64,000 bases of DNA, from assembly GCA_016195805.1 (NCBI GenBank), contig JACPYT010000003.1, positions 1 through 64,000 on the forward strand, written 5' to 3'. A program made the translations under genes and the position numbers. Below the pieces are notes generated by a model. That model was not told the origin of the DNA. It ran no database searches and was given only the letters and a program-made list of their open reading frames with translations. This DNA is from Hydrogenophilales bacterium. Its GTDB lineage: Bacteria; Pseudomonadota; Gammaproteobacteria; Burkholderiales; Thiobacillaceae. Below, piece by piece: positions 18,143 to 51,309 of this stretch. Every line of letters starts with the position of its first letter. The first letter of the stretch is position 1.

Positions 18143-19456
18143 CTAGTGCAGCTTGATGCGCGCGCGCGTCGGCGTGCTGATGAAATGGGCGTAGGTCGTG
18201 AGCGAAGTCTTGAACCAGCCGTGCAGCGCGATCTGGTGCATCTTGTGCAGCGACCAGTAGACGAAGCGCGCCATCACGCCCTCGATCATGATGCTGCCGC
18301 CGGTGAGCGCCCCCATCAGGTTGCCGACGGTTGAAAAGCGGCCCAGCGCGATCAGCGAGCCGTAATCGCGGTAGACATACTCCGGCAGGGATTTGCCGCG
18401 GAAGCGCCGGCAGATCGATTTCGCCAGCATCGAGGCCTGCTGGTGCGCGGCCTGCGCGCGCGGCGGGACGAAGCCCTTGCCGTCGGGCATCGCACAGGCG
18501 GCGCAATCGCCGAAGGCGAAGATGTTGTCGTCGCGCGTGGTCTGCAGCGTGGGACGCACGACCAGCTGGTTGTTGCGGCTGGTTTCCAGTCCGTCGATGT
18601 CCTTGAGGAAGTCCGGTGCCTTGATGCCGGCCGACCACACCATCATGCTGGCGGGAATGAACTTGCCGTCGGCGGTCAGCATGCCGTCGGCGCGCACCTC
18701 GACGATGCGCTCGCCGGTGTGCATCTCCACTCCGAGCTCGGCCAGACGTTCGGCCGCAGCGGCCGACAGGCGCGGCGGCAGTCCAGGCAGGATGCGGTCG
18801 GAGGCCTCGACGATCAGCAGCTTCAGGCTCTTTTCCGGCTCGATGTGATCCATGCCGTAGTACGACAGCTCGCGCGTGGTGTCGTGCAGTTCGGCGGCGA
18901 GTTCGACGCCGGTGGCGCCGGCGCCGACGATGCCGACGGTAAGCTGGCCAGGCGCGACGGCCTCGGTCTGGGTATTCGCGCGCAGGCAGGCGTTGATGTG
19001 GCGGCGGTGGAATTCGCGCGCCTGCTCGGGGGTGTCGAGCATGATGCAGTGCTCCTTCACGCCCGGCACGCCGAAGTCGTTGCCGACCGAGCCAACCGCG
19101 ATGATCAGCGTGTCGTAACGAAAGCTGCGGCGGGGAATGATCTCGATGCCGCTCTCGTCCAGCGTGGGGGCGACACTGACTTCCTGGCGCTTGCGGTCGA
19201 GTCCGTCCATGCGCCCGAGGCGGAAGGTGAAATGGTGCCAGTGCCCCTGCGCCAGGTATTCCAGCCGCTCGGCGTAGGAGTCGAGGCTGCCCGCCGCAAC
19301 TTCGTACAGCAGCGGCTTCCACAGGTGCGAGGGCGAGGCGTCGATCAGCGTGATGTTCGCGCGCTTCTTTCCAATCTTGTCGCCCAGGCGGGTCGCCAGT
19401 TCCAGTCCGCCCGCGCCGCCACCCACGATGACGATTTCATGCACCTGCCGTTCCAT
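18143..19456 (-). CDS. ndh: Type II NADH:quinone oxidoreductase (NDH-2)
   Basis: This ~437-residue flavoprotein transfers electrons from NADH to quinone at the inner membrane without proton pumping. It has the FAD site EIVIVGGGAGGLELATRLGD at the N-terminus, the NADH site TVGIVGAGATGVELAAEL near residue 165 and the third FAD motif NIFAFGDCAA near residue 325. The C-terminus has amphipathic/hydrophobic segments for membrane attachment. I start at the ATG at 19456; the frame runs further upstream without family resemblance. It is a single gene with its own terminator. Confidence 0.92.
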   Translation of the reverse strand: MERQVHEIVIVGGGAGGLELATRLGDKIGKKRANITLIDASPSHLWKPLLYEVAAGSLDSYAERLEYLAQGHWHHFTFRLGRMDGLDRKRQEVSVAPTLDESGIEIIPRRSFRYDTLIIAVGSVGNDFGVPGVKEHCIMLDTPEQAREFHRRHINACLRANTQTEAVAPGQLTVGIVGAGATGVELAAELHDTTRELSYYGMDHIEPEKSLKLLIVEASDRILPGLPPRLSAAAAERLAELGVEMHTGERIVEVRADGMLTADGKFIPASMMVWSAGIKAPDFLKDIDGLETSRNNQLVVRPTLQTTRDDNIFAFGDCAACAMPDGKGFVPPRAQAAHQQASMLAKSICRRFRGKSLPEYVYRDYGSLIALGRFSTVGNLMGALTGGSIMIEGVMARFVYWSLHKMHQIALHGWFKTSLTTYAHFISTPTRARIKLH

Positions 19457-19645
19457 TGCCACAAATAGCCTCCCGTTTTCGTCGTAGCGCGATGATACTC
19501 GGAACATTAGCATTTACTTCTATTCTTTGTATGGCACGCGACGCGATTGAACTCGCTAGAATCCGTGCATCCCCGACAAGGGGACTCCGACTTTCTACGG
19601 GCTAAAGCCCGTGAAAGATCGTATGTCCCTACCCCAGGAACAACC

Positions 19646-23541: not shown

Positions 23542-23937
23542 GGCGCATGTATCCTTTTGTTTTTCATCGTGAATGGCCAAGGACCTCATTCAACACCCGC
23601 CTGGATACCCGCTTTTGCTTCTGATACCCCGAGCCTTATGTCTGGAACCGACAGCACGAAAGCTGCCATTGTCGCCCAGATCAGCCTCCATATAAACCCT
23701 TGCCCTGCCCCCGTATTGGCTGCCCTTGCCCTCGCCAAAACCCGTTTTCCGACCCAGTCGGCCGATACACCGTGTTGGCCTAACCCACGGGGCAAAACAA
23801 TAGAGAAGAAGTGTGCCGCCTCCCTCGGTTCAAATCCCTATCGGCAGGGAGTAGACTTTTTCTCCAGGCATCGCCTCGCTGAATGCCAGAGACCTTGTCG
23901 AACCCGGGCAAACATAACAAGCAAGGAGCAGGTCCAA
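23542..23937. other. Intergenic region upstream of trpG
   Basis: No supported gene is seen in these ~396 bases. The frame that continues the following DUF1566 gene upstream is open but has no recognisable domain and lacks a ribosome binding site. The promoter now serving trpG-D-C must lie here, but I cannot pick it out with confidence. This is one edge of the DNA that separates trpG from trpE. Confidence 0.5.
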
Positions 23938-24552
23938 ATGGAGACATCCCGCGTCATCCTCGCTCTGGTTGCAGGACTGGGCCTGCCCGGCGTTGTCCAG
24001 GCCACCCTGGTCGATCGGGGCGGCGGGCTCATATACGACACCGACCTCAATGTCACCTGGCTGGCGGACGCCAACTACGCCAGGACCAGCGGTTATGCCG
24101 CCACGTTGCATGGCTCCGGAAGCGATGGCCGGATGACCTGGAGTCAGGCCGAAACCTGGGTTGCCCATCTCGTGTACCACGATCCCGTGCGCAATGTCGA
24201 TCTGAGGGGCTGGCGGTTGCCCACGACGCTGCAGCCAGACCCGACCTGCAGCGTCCAGTCCGGCGGGGATTCCTTTGGCTACCACTGCACCGGCAGCGAA
24301 CTGGGGCACCTGTTCTACGAAGGGCTGGGCGGGAAAACGGCCACCCCGATCGGCACGGCGCACAACGGCAGCTACAGCCTGTTTTCGCATGGCCCGGACA
24401 GCCTGTACTGGTCCGGTACGGAATATGCCCCCGATGCAAGCCGGGCCTGGGGATTCATGTTCGACAGCGGCAGCTCGCTCGCCGGCGGCAAGGGCAATCG
24501 CATGTACGTCCTGCCGGTTCGCCCCGGCGATGTCGGCATCGCCGCTCGCTAA
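23938..24552 (+). CDS. Secreted DUF1566 domain protein
   Basis: This 204-residue protein has a signal peptide (ILALVAGLGLPGVVQAT) and one DUF1566-like domain. It shows the typical start LIYDTDLNVTWLADANYA, a WSQAETWVAHL segment, GWRLPTT and the closing YWSGTEYAP..AWGFMFDSG pattern. Its function is unknown; such proteins are exported and often occur with extracellular or cell-surface genes. The ATG at 23938 follows AAGGAGCAGGTCCAA. A strong terminator follows. Confidence 0.82.
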   Translation: METSRVILALVAGLGLPGVVQATLVDRGGGLIYDTDLNVTWLADANYARTSGYAATLHGSGSDGRMTWSQAETWVAHLVYHDPVRNVDLRGWRLPTTLQPDPTCSVQSGGDSFGYHCTGSELGHLFYEGLGGKTATPIGTAHNGSYSLFSHGPDSLYWSGTEYAPDASRAWGFMFDSGSSLAGGKGNRMYVLPVRPGDVGIAAR

Positions 24553-24608: not shown

Positions 24609-24644
24609 ATGCAAAAGGCCAACCGACGGGTTGGCCTTTTGCAT
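24609..24644. terminator. Bidirectional terminator between DUF1566 gene and cytochrome c gene
   Basis: A perfect 16-base stem (24609-24624 with 24629-24644) with a GACG loop carries A4 and T4 runs inside the stem. It lies 57 bases beyond the rightward DUF1566 gene and 35 bases beyond the leftward cytochrome gene. Confidence 0.85.
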
Positions 24645-24678: not shown

Positions 24679-25326
24679 CTACTGCGGCGAAATCCCCTGC
24701 AGATACGTCGTCACGGCAATCATGTCTGAAGGCGTCAGGCCATGGACCAGCGGCTTCATCATCGCGCCGGCGGGGCGCTGGTCGGTCTGCGACAGAATGT
24801 GCAGCTGTTTGATCATGTAGTCCTTATGCTGGCCCGCCAGGCGGGGAAAGGTGCCATTGCCCATGCCTTGCGCGCCGTGGCAGCCCGCACAGGCGGCGAC
24901 TTCCTCTTTGGGATTGCCGTTCTCGAACAGCGCCTTTCCTTCGGCAACCAATGCCGGGTCGCCGGTGACATTGGGCGCGTCCTTCTGCTGCGAGAAATAG
25001 GTGGCCAGTCCCTTGATCTGTTCATCCGTCAGTTTCCGGGCGATCCCCCACATGTACTCGGAGCCTTCCGGATCGGAGCGGTTATGGCTGCGGAAGTAGG
25101 TCAGTTGGGCAACCAGGTAGTCCTCCTGCTGCCCGGCCAGCTTGGGGAAATTGGGATTGATCGAGTTGCCGTCCACGCTATGGCAATTCGAACACACCTG
25201 CATGGCAAGCGTTTTGCCCTGAACCTGCGGATTGCCGAGATCCCGCGAACGCTCCAGGTTGGAGCACCCCCCGATCGCAAGGCTCGCAATGGCCAATGTC
25301 AGGGTCGTATACAAAGCTGTCTTCAT
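24679..25326 (-). CDS. Diheme c-type cytochrome lipoprotein (cytochrome c4-like)
   Basis: This 215-residue protein has a signal peptide with a lipobox (AIGGC near residue 20), so it is probably a membrane-anchored periplasmic lipoprotein. Two heme sites are present, CSNCH near residue 45 and CAGCH near residue 140, in duplicated halves each followed by FPKLAGQQEDYL or FPRLAGQHKDYM. That duplication is the hallmark of the cytochrome c4 type. It lies 52 bases downstream of the outer-membrane cytochrome-porin on the same strand and is a plausible periplasmic electron acceptor for it. Confidence 0.88.
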   Translation of the reverse strand: MKTALYTTLTLAIASLAIGGCSNLERSRDLGNPQVQGKTLAMQVCSNCHSVDGNSINPNFPKLAGQQEDYLVAQLTYFRSHNRSDPEGSEYMWGIARKLTDEQIKGLATYFSQQKDAPNVTGDPALVAEGKALFENGNPKEEVAACAGCHGAQGMGNGTFPRLAGQHKDYMIKQLHILSQTDQRPAGAMMKPLVHGLTPSDMIAVTTYLQGISPQ

Positions 25327-25378
25327 GTTGAGTCCCTTTAAGTCAGTATAAAGTGCGCTGTCGGGCTAACCGGCCTCG

Positions 25379-26782
25379 TCAGTAGGCACCCCACACATAG
25401 AAGAACAACGTGTCGTTGGCGCTGGCACTGCGACCCAAGCCATCGTAATTGCTGCTGGCACCGTTGAATTTCGTGTAATGCCAATATTGCGCACCGACGC
25501 GAAGATACTGCACGGGGGTCCAGAACACCTCTGGGACCCACACTGTCGTGTCCGGACTTCCGGCCATGTTGCCGGAAATATCGGTCGGTACGGGCGGGTT
25601 GGATCCCGCATAAAACGTGGCATCGGTGGAACCAGTGAGCTGCTGGTAGGCCAGACTGCCGCCATATTTGGCGTTGTAGACATAGGCCACCTTCATTTTC
25701 AGTTCCTTCAGGGTCTCGTTTGCATTATCAGCACCGGCTGTACCGACCAACGCAGGGTTGCCCCACCTCACGTTTTCGTGGATGTAGCTGATGTGGGCCG
25801 TGACCGTGTGCGGATCGAGAATGTACTGGTATTGCGCATCCAGCCCGTAGTCCTTGTAATGATCGGTGGGCAGCGTAACGTCATTCCCCTCGTGAATATC
25901 CGCCACGAGTCCGGACGTTCCGATCATGAGGTTATGCGGGCCAAACTCCTTCGTGTAGGCAAGGCGCCAGTACGGTGCCCCGTCCTTGATTCGAGCGATG
26001 CCGGCGTTGCCTCCCGGATGCAAAAATCCAAAAGGTCCGTTGGCTGTCTTGTACATGGAGAGTTCGCCATACACGCTCTTGTTCCAGTAAGCATAGACGC
26101 CGGCGCCCACCGCGTTCTGTGCAAGACCGCCATCCAGCAGGGGCGATGCGGGCGCGCCCAGGGCAAATTTCGGCCCGATATAGGGGTAGCCCCATGCCGG
26201 GGTGCTGTTCCAGACGTCCTGCATGCTCGGATTGTTGTTGGCGAAGGCGCCGACGATCAGATCGTTGCCAGGTGAAATAAAACGGTCGGCATAGCGTAGT
26301 TCCGTATTGTCCGGAGTTAGGTAGCCCTCATAGGGCCCCACCCCGGGCGTTTTCTGATGGTCGTAGTTCGCGTAGGTCGCCTGAGCGAACACCCCGAGGT
26401 TGTCGGTGATCTTGCCGGCAAGGAACACGCTGGCGAAATCGAACATTGGCTGGCCGTTCTTGTAGAAATCCGTGGTGTCCTTCACCCCCGCGGAATCCTT
26501 GGGGTTGCGGACGTTCGTGTAGTCGATCACCGCCATCACCGAGAGGGGGATGGAGCGGCTGCCCAGCGTATAGCCGGTGAGCTTGAACAGTCGCCCATAT
26601 TGGGTCAGTTCAGGGAACTGGCCGCCCGCGTGACAGGCCAGACAGTTTTGTCCCGTCTGCCGGGCAAAGGCGGGGAGAGCGTAGCTGGGGAAAGACCACA
26701 CCCCCAACAAAACAAGCGTAGCCAGTGCTGGGAGTATCTCCCGCACCTTCAGGATGTGGCGCCATACAAATTTGGTAATCAA
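25379..26782 (-). CDS. Outer-membrane monoheme cytochrome-porin (Cyc2-like)
   Basis: The 467-residue protein has a signal peptide ending near SYALPA, then one heme-binding CLACH in PAFARQTGQNCLACHAGG, followed by FPELTQYGRLFKLTGYTLG. About 400 residues of alternating aromatic/polar beta-strand character follow, ending in an aromatic residue (VWGAY), as expected for an outer-membrane barrel. This architecture, an N-terminal c-heme fused to a porin, and the heme-site context resemble the Cyc2 family of iron oxidisers, although a related cytochrome-porin of other function is possible. Translation likely starts at TTG (26782), with GGGGAG six bases upstream; no in-frame ATG exists before the heme. 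It pairs with the diheme cytochrome downstream. Confidence 0.8.
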   Translation of the reverse strand: MITKFVWRHILKVREILPALATLVLLGVWSFPSYALPAFARQTGQNCLACHAGGQFPELTQYGRLFKLTGYTLGSRSIPLSVMAVIDYTNVRNPKDSAGVKDTTDFYKNGQPMFDFASVFLAGKITDNLGVFAQATYANYDHQKTPGVGPYEGYLTPDNTELRYADRFISPGNDLIVGAFANNNPSMQDVWNSTPAWGYPYIGPKFALGAPASPLLDGGLAQNAVGAGVYAYWNKSVYGELSMYKTANGPFGFLHPGGNAGIARIKDGAPYWRLAYTKEFGPHNLMIGTSGLVADIHEGNDVTLPTDHYKDYGLDAQYQYILDPHTVTAHISYIHENVRWGNPALVGTAGADNANETLKELKMKVAYVYNAKYGGSLAYQQLTGSTDATFYAGSNPPVPTDISGNMAGSPDTTVWVPEVFWTPVQYLRVGAQYWHYTKFNGASSNYDGLGRSASANDTLFFYVWGAY

Positions 26783-26855: not shown

Positions 26856-26917
26856 GTGTTGCAAAACACAACTACGTTACAAAACGAACCATGCACAGAT
26901 AAGCGGTGTTGCAAAAC
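26856..26917 (-). promoter_or_regulatory. Three GTTRCAAAAC repeats before the cytochrome-porin gene
   Basis: GTTGCAAAAC occurs at 26858-26867 and 26908-26917, each inside the 12-base GTGTTGCAAAAC, and the variant GTTACAAAAC at 26876-26885. All are in the same orientation, 74-135 bases before the start codon. They look like direct-repeat binding sites for an activator or repressor; none has been assigned. Confidence 0.55.
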
Positions 26918-26934
26918 TGAACAGTCCAAATAAT

Positions 26935-26950
26935 AGGATATTGATATCCT
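26935..26950. promoter_or_regulatory. Perfect palindrome AGGATAT-TG-ATATCCT
   Basis: Seven-base arms around a 2-base centre form a symmetrical site about 155 bases before the cytochrome-porin start. It lies between the tandem repeat and the GTTRCAAAAC repeats. It could be an operator; the arms are too short and AT-rich for a terminator. Confidence 0.5.
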
Positions 26951-26958
26951 TTATTCAA

Positions 26959-27090: not shown

Positions 27091-27113
27091 AAAAAAGCGC
27101 CCGCAGGCGCTTT
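27091..27113 (-). terminator. Rho-independent terminator of sqr
   Basis: On the minus strand AAAGCGCC / GGCGCTTT forms a stem with a 4-base loop, ending in T6, 24 bases beyond the sqr stop. Confidence 0.85.
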
Positions 27114-27136: not shown

Positions 27137-28405
27137 TTATTTGAGCTTCTTGATGCCCATCAGGCCGAGCACGTATTTCTCGTACAGCGGCTCGGTCGAG
27201 CCTTTTTTCATCTTGCGCATGAAGTACTTCTCGAACGCGACCTTGGCCAGATGCACCCACTTGCCTTCCTTGAACCAGTTGACGTTGCGCGGCGGGATCT
27301 GCGGCAGCGCGACGAAGGCGGCGCCGGTGTCGCCGAAGTCGGCCAGGCAGATGGCGTTCCAGGTCGCCTTCTCGACCGGCTCGCCGCCGTCTAGCACGGC
27401 ACGGATGTTGTGCGCGGTGGCGGTGACCATGGACTCGATCATGTAGCCGGTCTTGGGGGTGCCGGTCGGCACCGGCGTGGCCTCGACCGGGGGAATGGCG
27501 ACGCACACGCCGACCGAGTAGATGTTCTGGAACTTGGGATTGCGCTGATAGGGATCGATGGTGATGAAGCCGCGTGGATTGGTCAGGCCCTCGACGCCGA
27601 ACACCGCGTCGATGCCCTTGAACGCCGGCAGCATCATGGAATAGGCGAACGGCAGCTCGTGCTCCTTGATCACCTCGCCCTTGTCGTTGTGCTCGGCGAC
27701 GAACATCTTGCCGGCCTCGACCTTGGTGACCTTGGCGTTGCAGATCCACTTGATGTGGCGGTCACGCATCGCCGACTCGAGCAGGCCCTTCGAATCGCCC
27801 ACCCCGCCCAGCCCGAGATGCCCGATATAGGGCTCGGCGGTGACGAAGGTCATCGGCACCTTGTCGCGGATCTTGCGCTTCCTCAGGTCGGTATCCATGA
27901 TCATGGCGAATTCGTACGCCGGGCCGTAGCACGAGGCGCCCTGCACCGCGCCCACCACGATGGGGCCCGGCTTCTGCACGAAATCGTCCCACACCCGCCC
28001 CGCGGACACGGCGTGTTCGACCTGGCAGATCGACTGGGTATGGCCTTCCGGCCCCAGCCCCGGCACCTCGTCGAAGGCCAGCTTGGGCCCGGTCGCGATG
28101 ATGAGGAAGTCGTAGTTCACGATCTGGCCGTCAGTGAGCTCGACCTGATTTTTCTCGGGGTGCACGCGCGCGGCGCCAACCGGGATGAAGTCGATATTCT
28201 TCTTGTTCAGATACGGAGCGGCCTCGAGGGTGACATCGTCGCGCTTGCGCCAGTTCACGGCCACCCAGGGATTGGACGGGGTGAACTGGAAATATGAATT
28301 GTTGGAAATGACGGTGACCTTGTCTTCCGCCCGCGCCGATTCGCGCATTTCATAGGCCATGGTCATGCCCCCCACGCCCGCGCCCAGAATAACGATATGT
28401 GCCAT
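27137..28405 (-). CDS. sqr: Sulfide:quinone oxidoreductase (type I-like)
   Basis: SQR oxidises sulfide to sulfane sulfur at the membrane and passes electrons to quinone. The 422-residue flavoprotein starts with the FAD site VILGAGVGGMTMAYEM and aligns throughout with the Acidithiobacillus ferrooxidans enzyme from memory. The catalytic cysteines are present: C127 (SICQVEHA), C159 (QGASCYGPAYE) and C353 (WNAICLADFGD). The PTGTPKTGYMIESMV segment and the amphipathic C-terminal FEKYFMRKMKKG are also family features. The ATG follows CAAGGAGGACAGC. It is transcribed divergently from fisR and has a sigma-54 promoter (28452-28467). Confidence 0.94.
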   Translation of the reverse strand: MAHIVILGAGVGGMTMAYEMRESARAEDKVTVISNNSYFQFTPSNPWVAVNWRKRDDVTLEAAPYLNKKNIDFIPVGAARVHPEKNQVELTDGQIVNYDFLIIATGPKLAFDEVPGLGPEGHTQSICQVEHAVSAGRVWDDFVQKPGPIVVGAVQGASCYGPAYEFAMIMDTDLRKRKIRDKVPMTFVTAEPYIGHLGLGGVGDSKGLLESAMRDRHIKWICNAKVTKVEAGKMFVAEHNDKGEVIKEHELPFAYSMMLPAFKGIDAVFGVEGLTNPRGFITIDPYQRNPKFQNIYSVGVCVAIPPVEATPVPTGTPKTGYMIESMVTATAHNIRAVLDGGEPVEKATWNAICLADFGDTGAAFVALPQIPPRNVNWFKEGKWVHLAKVAFEKYFMRKMKKGSTEPLYEKYVLGLMGIKKLK

Positions 28406-28522: not shown

Positions 28523-28563
28523 GGATTTGTCATGTCATTTTTCATGTCCGTCATGACAAATCC
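28523..28563. promoter_or_regulatory. Inverted repeat, probable FisR binding site (enhancer)
   Basis: GGATTTGTCATG (28523-28534) and CATGACAAATCC (28552-28563) form a perfect 12-base inverted repeat with a 17-base spacer. Its centre lies ~102 bases upstream of the predicted sqr transcription start, the usual position of a sigma-54 enhancer. It also covers three in-frame ATGs before the preferred fisR start, which suggests autoregulation. Confidence 0.7.
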
Positions 28564-28570
28564 GCCCGCC

Positions 28571-29869
28571 ATGGACCTCGAACTCCAGAGCCTGATCGAT
28601 ACGCACGAACAGCCGTTCGTCGTGATCGACCGCGCCTACCGCATCGTCGCCGCCAACCAGCGCTACTGCGATGCCTACGGCATGACACCCGACGCCATCG
28701 TCGGCCAGCACTGCCACGCGGTGTCGCATCACTCGCCGCGTCCCTGCCACGAAAACGGCGAGCACTGTCCGCACCAGGCGCTGTTCTCGCGGGGCGAGGC
28801 GGTCGAGGTGCTGCACACGCATTTCCACGCCGACAACCAGCCCGAGCGCACCCGCATCCGTGGGCACCGACTGCGCGGCGCGAACGGCGAACTGTATCTG
28901 GGCGAGCAGCTGTTTCCGCTGGAAGCCGAGGCCGGCAGCGAGTGCGATGCCATGCAGATGATCGGACAATCGCCCGCCTTTCTCGCCTGCGTCGACAACC
29001 TGGCGCGCGTAGCCGAAAGCGAGGCGTCGATCCTGCTGTACGGCGAGAGCGGCGTCGGCAAGGAGCTCGCCGCGCGCTTCATCCATGCGCGCTCGAGCCG
29101 CGCGGGCACGGCGTTCATCGTCATCAATTGCGCGGCGGTGCCGGAAAGCCTGTTCGAAAGCGAACTCTTCGGCCACGAGCGCGGCGCGTTTTCCGGCAGC
29201 AGCGGACAGAAAAAGGGCCTGTTCGAACTCGCCAACGGCGGCACCCTGTTCCTCGATGAAATCGGCGAGATCCCGCTGGCCATGCAGGCCAAGCTGCTGC
29301 GCGTACTGGAGACCGGCGAATTCCGCCGCGTCGGCGGTACGCAGACGCTGACTGCCGACGTGCGCGTGGTCTCCGCCACCAACCGCCGGCTGCTCGACGA
29401 AGTCGATGCCAAGCGCTTCCGGCTCGACCTGTATTACCGCCTGGCCGGCATCGACGTCACCCTGCCGCCGCTACGTGAGCGCGCCGCCGACCTCCCCGAG
29501 CTGGCGAACTTCCTGCTCAAGCGGCTGACCGGCGGACAAAGCCCCTGCCGGCTCGCGCCGGACGCCGTCTCGGCATTGCAGGCCTACGACTTCCCCGGCA
29601 ACGTGCGCGAACTGCGCAACCTCCTGCAGCATGCCGTCCTCAGTTGCCGCGACGGCACCATCCGCGCGAGCGACCTGCGGCTGTCGCCGCGCGTCGCGCA
29701 GGCTCTGCCGGACACGGCGAACGCCTCGCTGCGCAACATGGAACGCGCGCACCTGCAAAGCCTGCTCGACGCGCACGACGGCCACCGCGCCCGCGTCGCC
29801 GCCGCGCTCGGCGTCACCGAACGCACGCTGTATCGCAAGCTTAAGCAGCACGGCTTGGGGAAGATCTGA
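28571..29869 (+). CDS. fisR: FisR-type sigma-54 activator sensing sulfane sulfur
   Basis: This ~432-residue activator has an N-terminal PAS-like sensor, a AAA+ domain and a Fis-type helix-turn-helix. The sensor has cysteines C48, C59 and C66 (GQHCHAV, RPCHEN, EHCPHQ), spaced 11 and 7. That is the spacing of the reactive C53, C64 and C71 reported for Cupriavidus FisR, which responds to polysulfide and activates sqr. The AAA+ part has GESGVGKE and TLFLDEIGE, but its sigma-54 contact loop reads GAFSGS instead of GAFTGA. The C-terminus has RVAAALGVTERTLYRKLKQHG. Starts at 28532, 28544 and 28553 are also possible; none has a clear ribosome binding site. Confidence 0.88.
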   Translation: MDLELQSLIDTHEQPFVVIDRAYRIVAANQRYCDAYGMTPDAIVGQHCHAVSHHSPRPCHENGEHCPHQALFSRGEAVEVLHTHFHADNQPERTRIRGHRLRGANGELYLGEQLFPLEAEAGSECDAMQMIGQSPAFLACVDNLARVAESEASILLYGESGVGKELAARFIHARSSRAGTAFIVINCAAVPESLFESELFGHERGAFSGSSGQKKGLFELANGGTLFLDEIGEIPLAMQAKLLRVLETGEFRRVGGTQTLTADVRVVSATNRRLLDEVDAKRFRLDLYYRLAGIDVTLPPLRERAADLPELANFLLKRLTGGQSPCRLAPDAVSALQAYDFPGNVRELRNLLQHAVLSCRDGTIRASDLRLSPRVAQALPDTANASLRNMERAHLQSLLDAHDGHRARVAAALGVTERTLYRKLKQHGLGKI

Positions 29870-50595: not shown

Positions 50596-51309
50596 ATGAT
50601 GAGGTACCGTTCAATTCGCCTCTGCGCATTCCCCTCAGCTTGCGGGGCGAATGCCCTGCGCACCCTCGCGACTGTCGTTTTGATCGCCTGGGCCACGACG
50701 AGCGCGTCTATGGTGCACGCCGACCGGCTTGCCGGCGCTGCGCTCGCGCAGAAGGGATCCAAAGGAGTCCCCGCCTGCATGGCCTGTCATGGCGCAAACG
50801 GCGAGGGTCAGACGGCATCCGGCTTTCCTCGCCTGGCAGGCCAGCCTGAGGCCTATCTTCTGAAACAGCTGCAGGCGTTTGCCGGAGGGCAACGCAAGAA
50901 CTCCCAGATGGCACCGATCGCCAGCGCGCTCGATGCCCAGCAGATGCGCGATGCAGCCGACTACTACGCCAGCCTCCCGGGCTGGCGACCGCAGGGGCAA
51001 ACGCGTGCCCCGTCGCCCCAGTATGCGTTGGGCCTCAGGCTGGCCACCTCGGGGAACTGGAGCAAGGACGTACCTGCGTGCTTTGCCTGTCATGGCCCGG
51101 GAGGCGCAGGTGTTGCCCCCCATTTCCCCGCACTCGCGGGCCAACCGAGTGTCTATACCCGCAGCCAGATGAAGGCCTGGCAAACAGCCACGCGCACCAA
51201 CGACCCGCAAGGCCTGATGCAGTCCGTTGCCGAAAAGATGACCGACGCGGAATTCGACGCCGTCAGCCTGTATCTCGAACACCCTTCGCTGGACGAAAAG
51301 GGGAAATGA
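50596..51309 (+). CDS. tsdB: Diheme cytochrome c, TsdB-like
   Basis: This ~237-residue periplasmic cytochrome has a signal sequence and two heme sites, CMACH and CFACH, in duplicated halves, each followed by FPRLAGQPEAYL or FPALAGQPSVYT. Its stop overlaps the ATG of the thiosulfate dehydrogenase gene, the usual tsdB-tsdA arrangement in which TsdB accepts electrons from TsdA. The start is uncertain: ATGs at 50569, 50596 and 50599 all give an acceptable signal peptide. The name rests mainly on context; on its own it is a cytochrome c4-type protein. Confidence 0.82.
   Translation: MMRYRSIRLCAFPSACGANALRTLATVVLIAWATTSASMVHADRLAGAALAQKGSKGVPACMACHGANGEGQTASGFPRLAGQPEAYLLKQLQAFAGGQRKNSQMAPIASALDAQQMRDAADYYASLPGWRPQGQTRAPSPQYALGLRLATSGNWSKDVPACFACHGPGGAGVAPHFPALAGQPSVYTRSQMKAWQTATRTNDPQGLMQSVAEKMTDAEFDAVSLYLEHPSLDEKGK

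Follow-up and report, generated by a model that had tools for sequence, protein, structure and literature searches.

A Cyc2-type cytochrome-porin with a diheme lipoprotein partner as a candidate electron-uptake module in Thiobacillus

A cytochrome-porin gene and a diheme cytochrome gene

We analyzed a 64,000-nucleotide stretch of DNA from a Hydrogenophilales bacterium (hereafter the window; assembly GCA_016195805.1, contig JACPYT010000003.1, positions 1 to 64,000), which belongs to contig 3 of a 2.96-Mb genome that is 99.85% complete. Two open reading frames (ORFs) on the minus strand, found at the positions given by a first-pass annotation made from the sequence alone, encode a Cyc2-type cytochrome-porin (cyc2; 25379..26782, stop included, 467 residues) and a diheme c4-type cytochrome lipoprotein (24679..25326, 215 residues). 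Thiobacillus thioparus DSM 505 and two further records of this genus are among the closest named relatives, at about 80% identity; the host was therefore assigned to Thiobacillus, in line with the sulfur oxidizer presumed in the annotation.

The porin ORF begins with TTG, just 5' of which lies GGGGAG, and a signal-peptide-like leader precedes its sole CXXCH site. Residues 35–43 (26654..26680, minus strand) read ALPAFARQT and thus match the Cyc2 motif AXPXFAR[Q/K][T/Y], which by definition lies shortly before the heme site (PMC8406198); its first alanine is likely the −1 residue for signal peptidase. The motif runs on as ALPAFARQT-GQN-CLACH, at the same distance to the heme site as in the Cyc2 anchors of our tree. 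Both cysteines and the histidine of the heme c site CLACH (residues 47–51, 26630..26644, minus strand) are invariant in the homologue alignment. The site is followed by AGGQF-PEL (26606..26629, minus strand), a five-residue loop and a PXL element, whereas the definition places PXL four residues after CXXCH. In a 47-row alignment AGG and PEL are invariant, while Q and F occur in at least 90% of the rows; we refer to proteins with this signature as the GG-loop type.

With 467 residues the porin exceeds the minimum length of 365 residues used for Cyc2. AlphaFold2 predicts a 16-strand beta-barrel over residues 80–466 (25385..26545, minus strand; mean predicted local distance difference test score (pLDDT) 74.1, predicted template modeling score 0.77), so that a fold other than a barrel, named in the annotation as a refutation, did not appear. 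The model resembles an OprO/OprP-like outer-membrane barrel, its top structural matches being OprO (4RJW) and OprP (2O4V), level with other porins; the same two structures are named for the Cyc2 of Mariprofundus (PMC8406198). Outer-membrane conduits built of a porin and c-hemes are also formed by MtoAB, PioAB and MtrCAB, but these combine a 26-strand porin with a separate decaheme cytochrome (PMC8406198), whereas the window protein fuses one heme to a predicted 16-strand barrel. An MtrAB/PioAB-type conduit was ruled out on these two counts, strands and hemes.

When all six frames of the window are read, the pattern A.P.FAR[QK][TY]...C..CH is found a single time, and the two genes turn up together across many genera, which rules out a chance motif. 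The porin was the sole match in its own genome, both in a protein search (E ≤ 10) and with a Cyc2 profile (E ≤ 1). No Pfam or NCBIfam model matched it at E ≤ 1, none of NCBIfam matched eight of its relatives above cut-off, and searches of PDB sequences with the porin, the Cyc2 profile and a relative of the Cluster 1 type described below gave no usable match.

The second gene product matches Cytochrom_C (1e-23) and, almost equally (about E 1e-32), the structures 1ETP, 6Q2U and 1H1O, the last of which we take to be Cyc1 of Acidithiobacillus ferrooxidans. Its sequence aligns with 1ETP and 6Q2U over residues 42–212 and has, as in cytochrome c4, two c-heme domains with methionine ligands. Its first heme site, CSNCH (residues 45–49, 25180..25194, minus strand), probably has Met92 as sixth ligand (conserved in 77/77 sequences), and its second, CAGCH (residues 146–150, 24877..24891, minus strand), Met190 (75/75). 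A lipobox cysteine, Cys21 in AIGGC-S (25264..25266, minus strand), is conserved in all 77 aligned homologues (76 locus partners and the window protein) behind a leader that is hydrophobic as judged by eye, and the residue at position +2 is never aspartate. In lipoprotein sorting, aspartate at +2 is the inner-membrane retention residue; taken together, these features form the pattern of an outer-membrane lipoprotein. The c4-like lipoprotein partner proposed in the annotation is thus borne out by its two CXXCH sites, methionine ligands and lipobox-like cysteine, and the pairing itself is conserved (see below). The window codes for another c4-like diheme cytochrome at 50653–51282 (plus strand), 33% identical to the lipoprotein, and a closer paralogue (40%; L250) lies elsewhere in the same genome.

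Placement among Cyc2 proteins and the GG-loop clade

The tree was anchored by gene context. In the genome of the main anchor (G362), Cyc2 lies in one run with a cytochrome oxidase subunit I gene (Pfam COX1, 8e-109), CtaA, a UbiA-type (CtaB-like) gene and a rusticyanin-like cupredoxin; two small intervening ORFs match no Pfam family. Across the class, rusticyanin was found in 5/369 genomes at E ≤ 1e-10, one of them over the family cut-off; in the genome of the window it was not found at this threshold. In an 18-genome family of acidophile type around G306, 15 genomes carry cyc2, several with a diheme cytochrome gene downstream. A phylum-wide search recovered Cyc2 in 88 of 398 genomes and added two further types, FARQT..CHFQ and FARKY..CHTMFP, which co-occur within a single family-level group whose genomes are small. 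Zetaproteobacteria carry Clusters 1 and 3 (PMC7029218), and we infer that this group represents them.

The resulting 83-row tree, built with a short search and supported by the Shimodaira–Hasegawa-like approximate likelihood ratio test (SH-aLRT) with no bootstrap, resolved three groups: a Cluster 3-type group (SH-aLRT 100), a Cluster 1-type group (94) and a third (99). The third comprises 56 rows and unites the Cyc2 of the rusticyanin-type operon, the acidophile type with cyc2-cyc1 and the window porin. A long-branch warning arose at Cluster 3; rebuilding the tree without Cluster 3 gave the same outcome and raised the split of the third group to 100. Judged by surrogate anchors, the window porin therefore appears to belong to the Cluster 2 lineage. 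Motif, predicted 16-strand barrel and tree position all agree with the Cyc2-type layout claimed in the annotation, and its call for a place within Cyc2 in a phylogeny was answered accordingly.

Within this lineage the 22 sampled rows of the GG-loop type form their own clade (SH-aLRT 99; 100 in the tree rebuilt without Cluster 3), its sister being a Caballeronia plasmid Cyc2 that has no GG loop. The window protein shares the fused one-heme cytochrome and 16-strand porin and the motif AXPXFARQT with known Cluster 2 members (A. ferrooxidans Cyc2; Ferrovum, Thiomonas and Sulfuriferula), stands in the tree with the Cyc2 of the rusticyanin-type operon and has a diheme c4 gene downstream like the cyc2-cyc1 acidophiles. 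It differs from the rusticyanin-type-operon Cyc2 in its separate clade and in the gap between CXXCH and PXL, which spans five residues (AGGQF) as opposed to three; most Cluster 1-type anchors have four. Clusters 1 (Mariprofundus, Gallionellaceae) and 3 (the Cyt572 lineage) have the same fused architecture and the motif, but are separate clusters in the tree, and Cluster 3-type rows read FARKY.

A similar division was seen for the partner. Like Cyc1 (1H1O), it is a diheme c4 encoded after cyc2, aligns over residues 44–210 and has Y-M-W at the first methionine ligand; unlike Cyc1, it is a lipoprotein, with an SR-containing tether in most homologues, and falls into a separate clade. The 18 sampled lipoprotein c4 proteins form one clade (99/97), apart from both 1H1O and the own-genome paralogue L250, whereas 1H1O groups (100/100) with its acidophile relatives, the five diheme cytochromes of the G306 family that were placed in the tree. 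The candidate identity of the partner as Cyc1 was rejected on this basis.

To describe the carriers of this type, the best 80 of at least 584 relatives were kept from a scan of named genomes, picked by two peptide patterns including FPELT and FARQTG; AGG was not part of the patterns. In all of these 80 the heme site continues as CHAGG, and with few exceptions as CHAGGQ[FY]P[ED]LT. They come from Burkholderia, Paraburkholderia, Caballeronia, Trinickia, Undibacterium, Collimonas, Rugamonas, Duganella, Rhodoferax, Pseudomonas fluorescens, Sulfuricella, Sulfuriferula and others, with Oxalobacteraceae represented. A diheme cytochrome gene lies directly downstream in 76 of the 80 loci; of the remainder, two (L065 and L071) are cut off by the contig end, L107 keeps the first half and L069 has no partner. 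When genomes of the order were surveyed with the window protein, 70/399 had a homologue at E ≤ 1e-20.

Across all evaluable loci, a lipobox-bearing diheme c4 gene follows in 100/103 GG-loop loci versus 0/49 other Cluster 2 loci, with clusters assigned by signature and flanks of just 1.5 kb for loci from whole genomes. The count takes in L107 (first half only), L052, L088 and L059 (loop GGL), while three more loci were not evaluable; those without the lipoprotein are L002, L069 and L276. Among the other Cluster 2 loci, some have a diheme cytochrome that is not a lipoprotein, some a single-heme cytochrome, and some none within the flank. Because the GG-loop loci form one clade, the difference does not represent many independent events. 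In loci that we assigned to Sulfuriferula, GG loop and lipoprotein c4 occur together in 9/9 inspected. We noticed no lipoprotein partner of Cyc2 in the available portions of the literature searched, which is no claim of its absence from print. The GG-loop Cyc2 and its nearly constant diheme lipoprotein would make up a module that is a widespread variant, with the window porin as a new member of Cluster 2.

Candidate electron uptake and its donor

By analogy with characterized Cyc2 proteins, the pair is probably an outer-membrane electron-uptake module of Cyc2 type (Cluster 2 lineage) with dissolved Fe(II) as donor. Fe(II) would enter the pore from outside and reduce the heme, placed at the periplasmic mouth, by one electron, which could then move on to the diheme lipoprotein, anchored by its lipid to the outer membrane's inner leaflet. 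The lipoprotein c4 would hand electrons on to soluble periplasmic carriers and further to the terminal oxidase (or nitrate reductases) and, through reverse flow, to nicotinamide adenine dinucleotide. For the Thiobacillus of the window, Fe(II) may then supplement reduced sulfur as a second electron donor.

Uptake of Fe(II) is deduced from the Cyc2 family and from the growth of Sulfuriferula isolates: one tested Cyc2 from each of the three clusters oxidizes Fe(II) (PMC8406198), and Sulfuriferula isolates that carry a Cluster 2 cyc2 grow on Fe(II) (PMC12285272). A pairing of Cyc2 with a diheme c4 is also seen in acidophile-type genomes, there with a cytochrome of the 1H1O group. The first-pass annotation had left the donor as Fe(II) or another insoluble or extracellular one. 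An insoluble donor appears less likely than dissolved Fe(II), because a one-heme Cyc2 is argued to require its substrate inside the pore and to use iron in dissolved, not solid, form (PMC8406198). Reports of Cyc2-bearing populations in rock-weathering cultures (PMC7767972) and of a cyc2 in Tenderia that is expressed more at higher cathode potential (PMC5371394) make electrode-like donors possible.

Several observations weigh against Fe(II) uptake by this pair. To our knowledge, many of the carriers, such as Burkholderia, Paraburkholderia, Pseudomonas fluorescens and Duganella-type genera, are not iron oxidizers, so that the substrate may differ. The pair is not part of the core genome of Thiobacillus, as a cyc2 orthologue with its partner was found in just 8/39 genomes of the genus. 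The heme segment of the porin (residues 30–59) has pLDDT < 50 in a model without heme, and its placement is weakly modeled. The tree anchors are surrogates picked by gene context and not the named sequences of A. ferrooxidans, M. ferrooxydans and Leptospirillum, and the rusticyanin-like match in the main anchor genome scores 137 bits, under the cut-off of 146.7. The GG-loop loci of Sulfuriferula can be tied to the Fe(II)-grown isolates at the level of the presumed genus only. By 2020, activity in Cluster 2 had been verified just for A. ferrooxidans Cyc2 (PMC7029218). Thiobacillus denitrificans oxidizes Fe(II) with nitrate and is reported to have no Cyc2 (PMC11963766). For the iron-oxidizing Paraburkholderia strains AV2, AV3 and AV18, a report mentions no annotated cyc2 and ascribes oxidation to nitrite (PMC12094003).

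The breadth of the carriers bears directly on a second explanation, in which the same device works in the same direction with a donor other than Fe(II), e.g. Mn(II), Cu(I), organic-ligand iron, reduced humics or another redox shuttle; the pair would then serve soil bacteria more generally in electron uptake or metal handling. Many carriers are soil and water heterotrophs for which we know of no growth on iron, and both the loop and the partner are peculiar to the GG-loop clade; in addition, PMC8406198 warns that distant Cyc2 homologues may function otherwise. Against this stand the Sulfuriferula isolates that grow on Fe(II), in a genus to which GG-loop loci were assigned, and the Fe(II) oxidation by the tested Cyc2 of every cluster, and overall we regard another donor as possible but doubtful. 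It is quite unlikely that the pair sends electrons outward, to an extracellular acceptor or for quenching oxidants, in reverse of Cyc2. The sequence does not reveal a direction and c4 cytochromes are reversible carriers, but a different Cyc2, that of strain PV-1, has a reported potential of 208 mV (PMC8406198), which favors Fe(II) uptake towards oxygen or nitrate.

Returning to uptake of dissolved Fe(II), a more far-reaching version is that of a self-contained two-protein wire, in which the lipid-anchored diheme c4 docks under a Cyc2 barrel adapted to it by the GG loop. Such a wire, widespread in ordinary soil and water bacteria such as Burkholderia, Paraburkholderia, Pseudomonas fluorescens, Oxalobacteraceae and Rhodoferax, might provide Fe(II) electron uptake that has gone unrecognized there and in some thiobacilli; we put this forward tentatively. 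The conserved pairing suggests that, in GG-loop bacteria, electrons leave the Cyc2 heme via a membrane-tethered rather than a free cytochrome. Whether Cyc2 homologues outside the known iron oxidizers oxidize iron is a stated question of the field (PMC8406198), for which the pair offers a well-defined test: the porin comes with a constant partner, and its hosts can be cultivated and include Sulfuriferula, whose isolates grow on Fe(II). Some thiobacilli do carry a Cyc2, although T. denitrificans was reported without one (PMC11963766).

The neighboring sqr gene, regulatory sites and occurrence in Thiobacillus

The annotation had further tied the electron route to a neighboring sqr-like flavoprotein gene (27137..28405, minus strand), which sits next to the pair on the same strand, both here and in the six loci closest to the window (L039–L044). 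This arrangement would fit a sulfur-oxidation accessory that works with sqr, for example by taking up electrons at the cell surface with polysulfide or solid sulfur as donor. The distribution of the genes argues otherwise. An sqr homologue (E ≤ 1e-60) is present in 56/56 Thiobacillus genomes, as a close orthologue (at least 86% identity) in 44 and as more distant family members in the other 12, with four members in the genome of the window, while the pair is confined to 8/39. In genomes without the pair, trpG follows sqr within about 170 bp in 8/14 cases; G069 has 1.5 kb of other DNA in between, and in 5/14 trpG is not within the stretch compared (one of these, G025, has only an sqr member of 78% identity). 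In the pair-bearing genomes, cyc2 and the c4 gene lie between sqr and trpG in 3/3. A terminator-like hairpin 3' of sqr (27094..27113, minus strand; five such sites in the stretch, 3.2 expected) separates sqr from cyc2, and a hairpin of the same kind follows sqr at the empty site of G046. Moreover, none of 74 further loci (L045–L118) has an sqr clustered with the pair within the flank available, which reached at least 3 kb on both sides in 38/74. Synteny, hairpin and empty sites thus led us to reject a functional link to sqr, and a role as sulfur-oxidation accessory is very unlikely.

A promoter-like sequence, TTGAAT-17-TATTAT, lies 5' of cyc2 (26930..26958, minus strand; one found, 1.3 expected by chance) and is partly conserved in Thiobacillus loci. 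Together with the sqr distribution, the hairpin and the 74 loci, it makes sqr look like an older neighbor, present with or without the pair, and the pair like a unit of its own, in which sqr is not counted. A 16-bp inverted repeat that lies 3' of the c4 gene (AAAAGGCCAACC...GGTTGGCCTTTT; 24609..24644, minus strand) is absent from the terminator scan and possibly marks the end of a two-gene transcript; a similar repeat is found in G017, presumably T. thioparus.

Between the promoter-like site and cyc2, TTTTGCAACAC occurs twice on the minus strand (26856–26866 and 26906–26916), 50 bp apart. TGCAAC-type words are kept at these places in most aligned Thiobacillus relatives and may represent an operator. 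A gene for a PAS and sigma-54 activator (28532–29869, plus strand) is divergent from sqr and present in five of the six closest loci. Control of cyc2 by sigma-54 was rejected, as no −24/−12 site within two mismatches was found for the window and five of the six relatives; L043 is the exception, with two-mismatch sites upstream of cyc2. A one-mismatch site (TGGCAT-N5-TTGC) lies upstream of sqr, suggesting that the nearby activator may control sqr rather than cyc2. An Lcl_C-domain gene (23557–24552, plus strand) is located between the c4 gene and trpG, where G017 has about 300 bp.

Mapped on the sqr tree, the presence of the pair requires four changes, three of which are forced by well-supported branches. 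A single gain within Thiobacillus is therefore not borne out; the pair was gained or lost repeatedly, or some absences are assembly gaps. Since the pair keeps the same location, it may have been present early and then lost several times, but some of the genomes without it are incomplete. The GC content at third codon positions is 0.73 for cyc2 and 0.78 for the c4 gene, compared with 0.84–0.90 for sqr, trpD, trpG, an NDH-2-like gene (18143–19513) and the sigma-54 activator gene; the Lcl_C gene (0.73) and an autotransporter gene (0.61) are low as well, and the difference is too weak an argument for transfer of cyc2 and c4.

Other Cyc2 types were also seen in the genus. Two Thiobacillus genomes (L034 = G062, L035 = G094) have, in place of the window type, a Cluster 1-type Cyc2 resembling the one in neutrophilic iron oxidizers, and the thiobacilli L024, L027 and L028 have a GPQL-loop Cyc2 instead. 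The latter represents a further Cluster 2 type, CH[VI]GxxGPQLT, found in the same family (L019, L020, L023–L025, L027–L031 and others) and often accompanied by a downstream gene for a single-heme cytochrome.

Cyc2-type genes occur on plasmids, too. In L007, L008 and L009 (Acidiphilium, and a record named A. ferrooxidans, CP084173) they lie beside a cytochrome gene, and one of these plasmids is typed as conjugative. The CP084173 plasmid equals Acidiphilium pACRY03 in gene order and locus coordinates and may be mislabeled or the result of a recent transfer. In pACMV3 the Cyc2-type gene is split into two ORFs, and on a Methylocystis plasmid (L005) it is followed by three consecutive diheme cytochrome genes.

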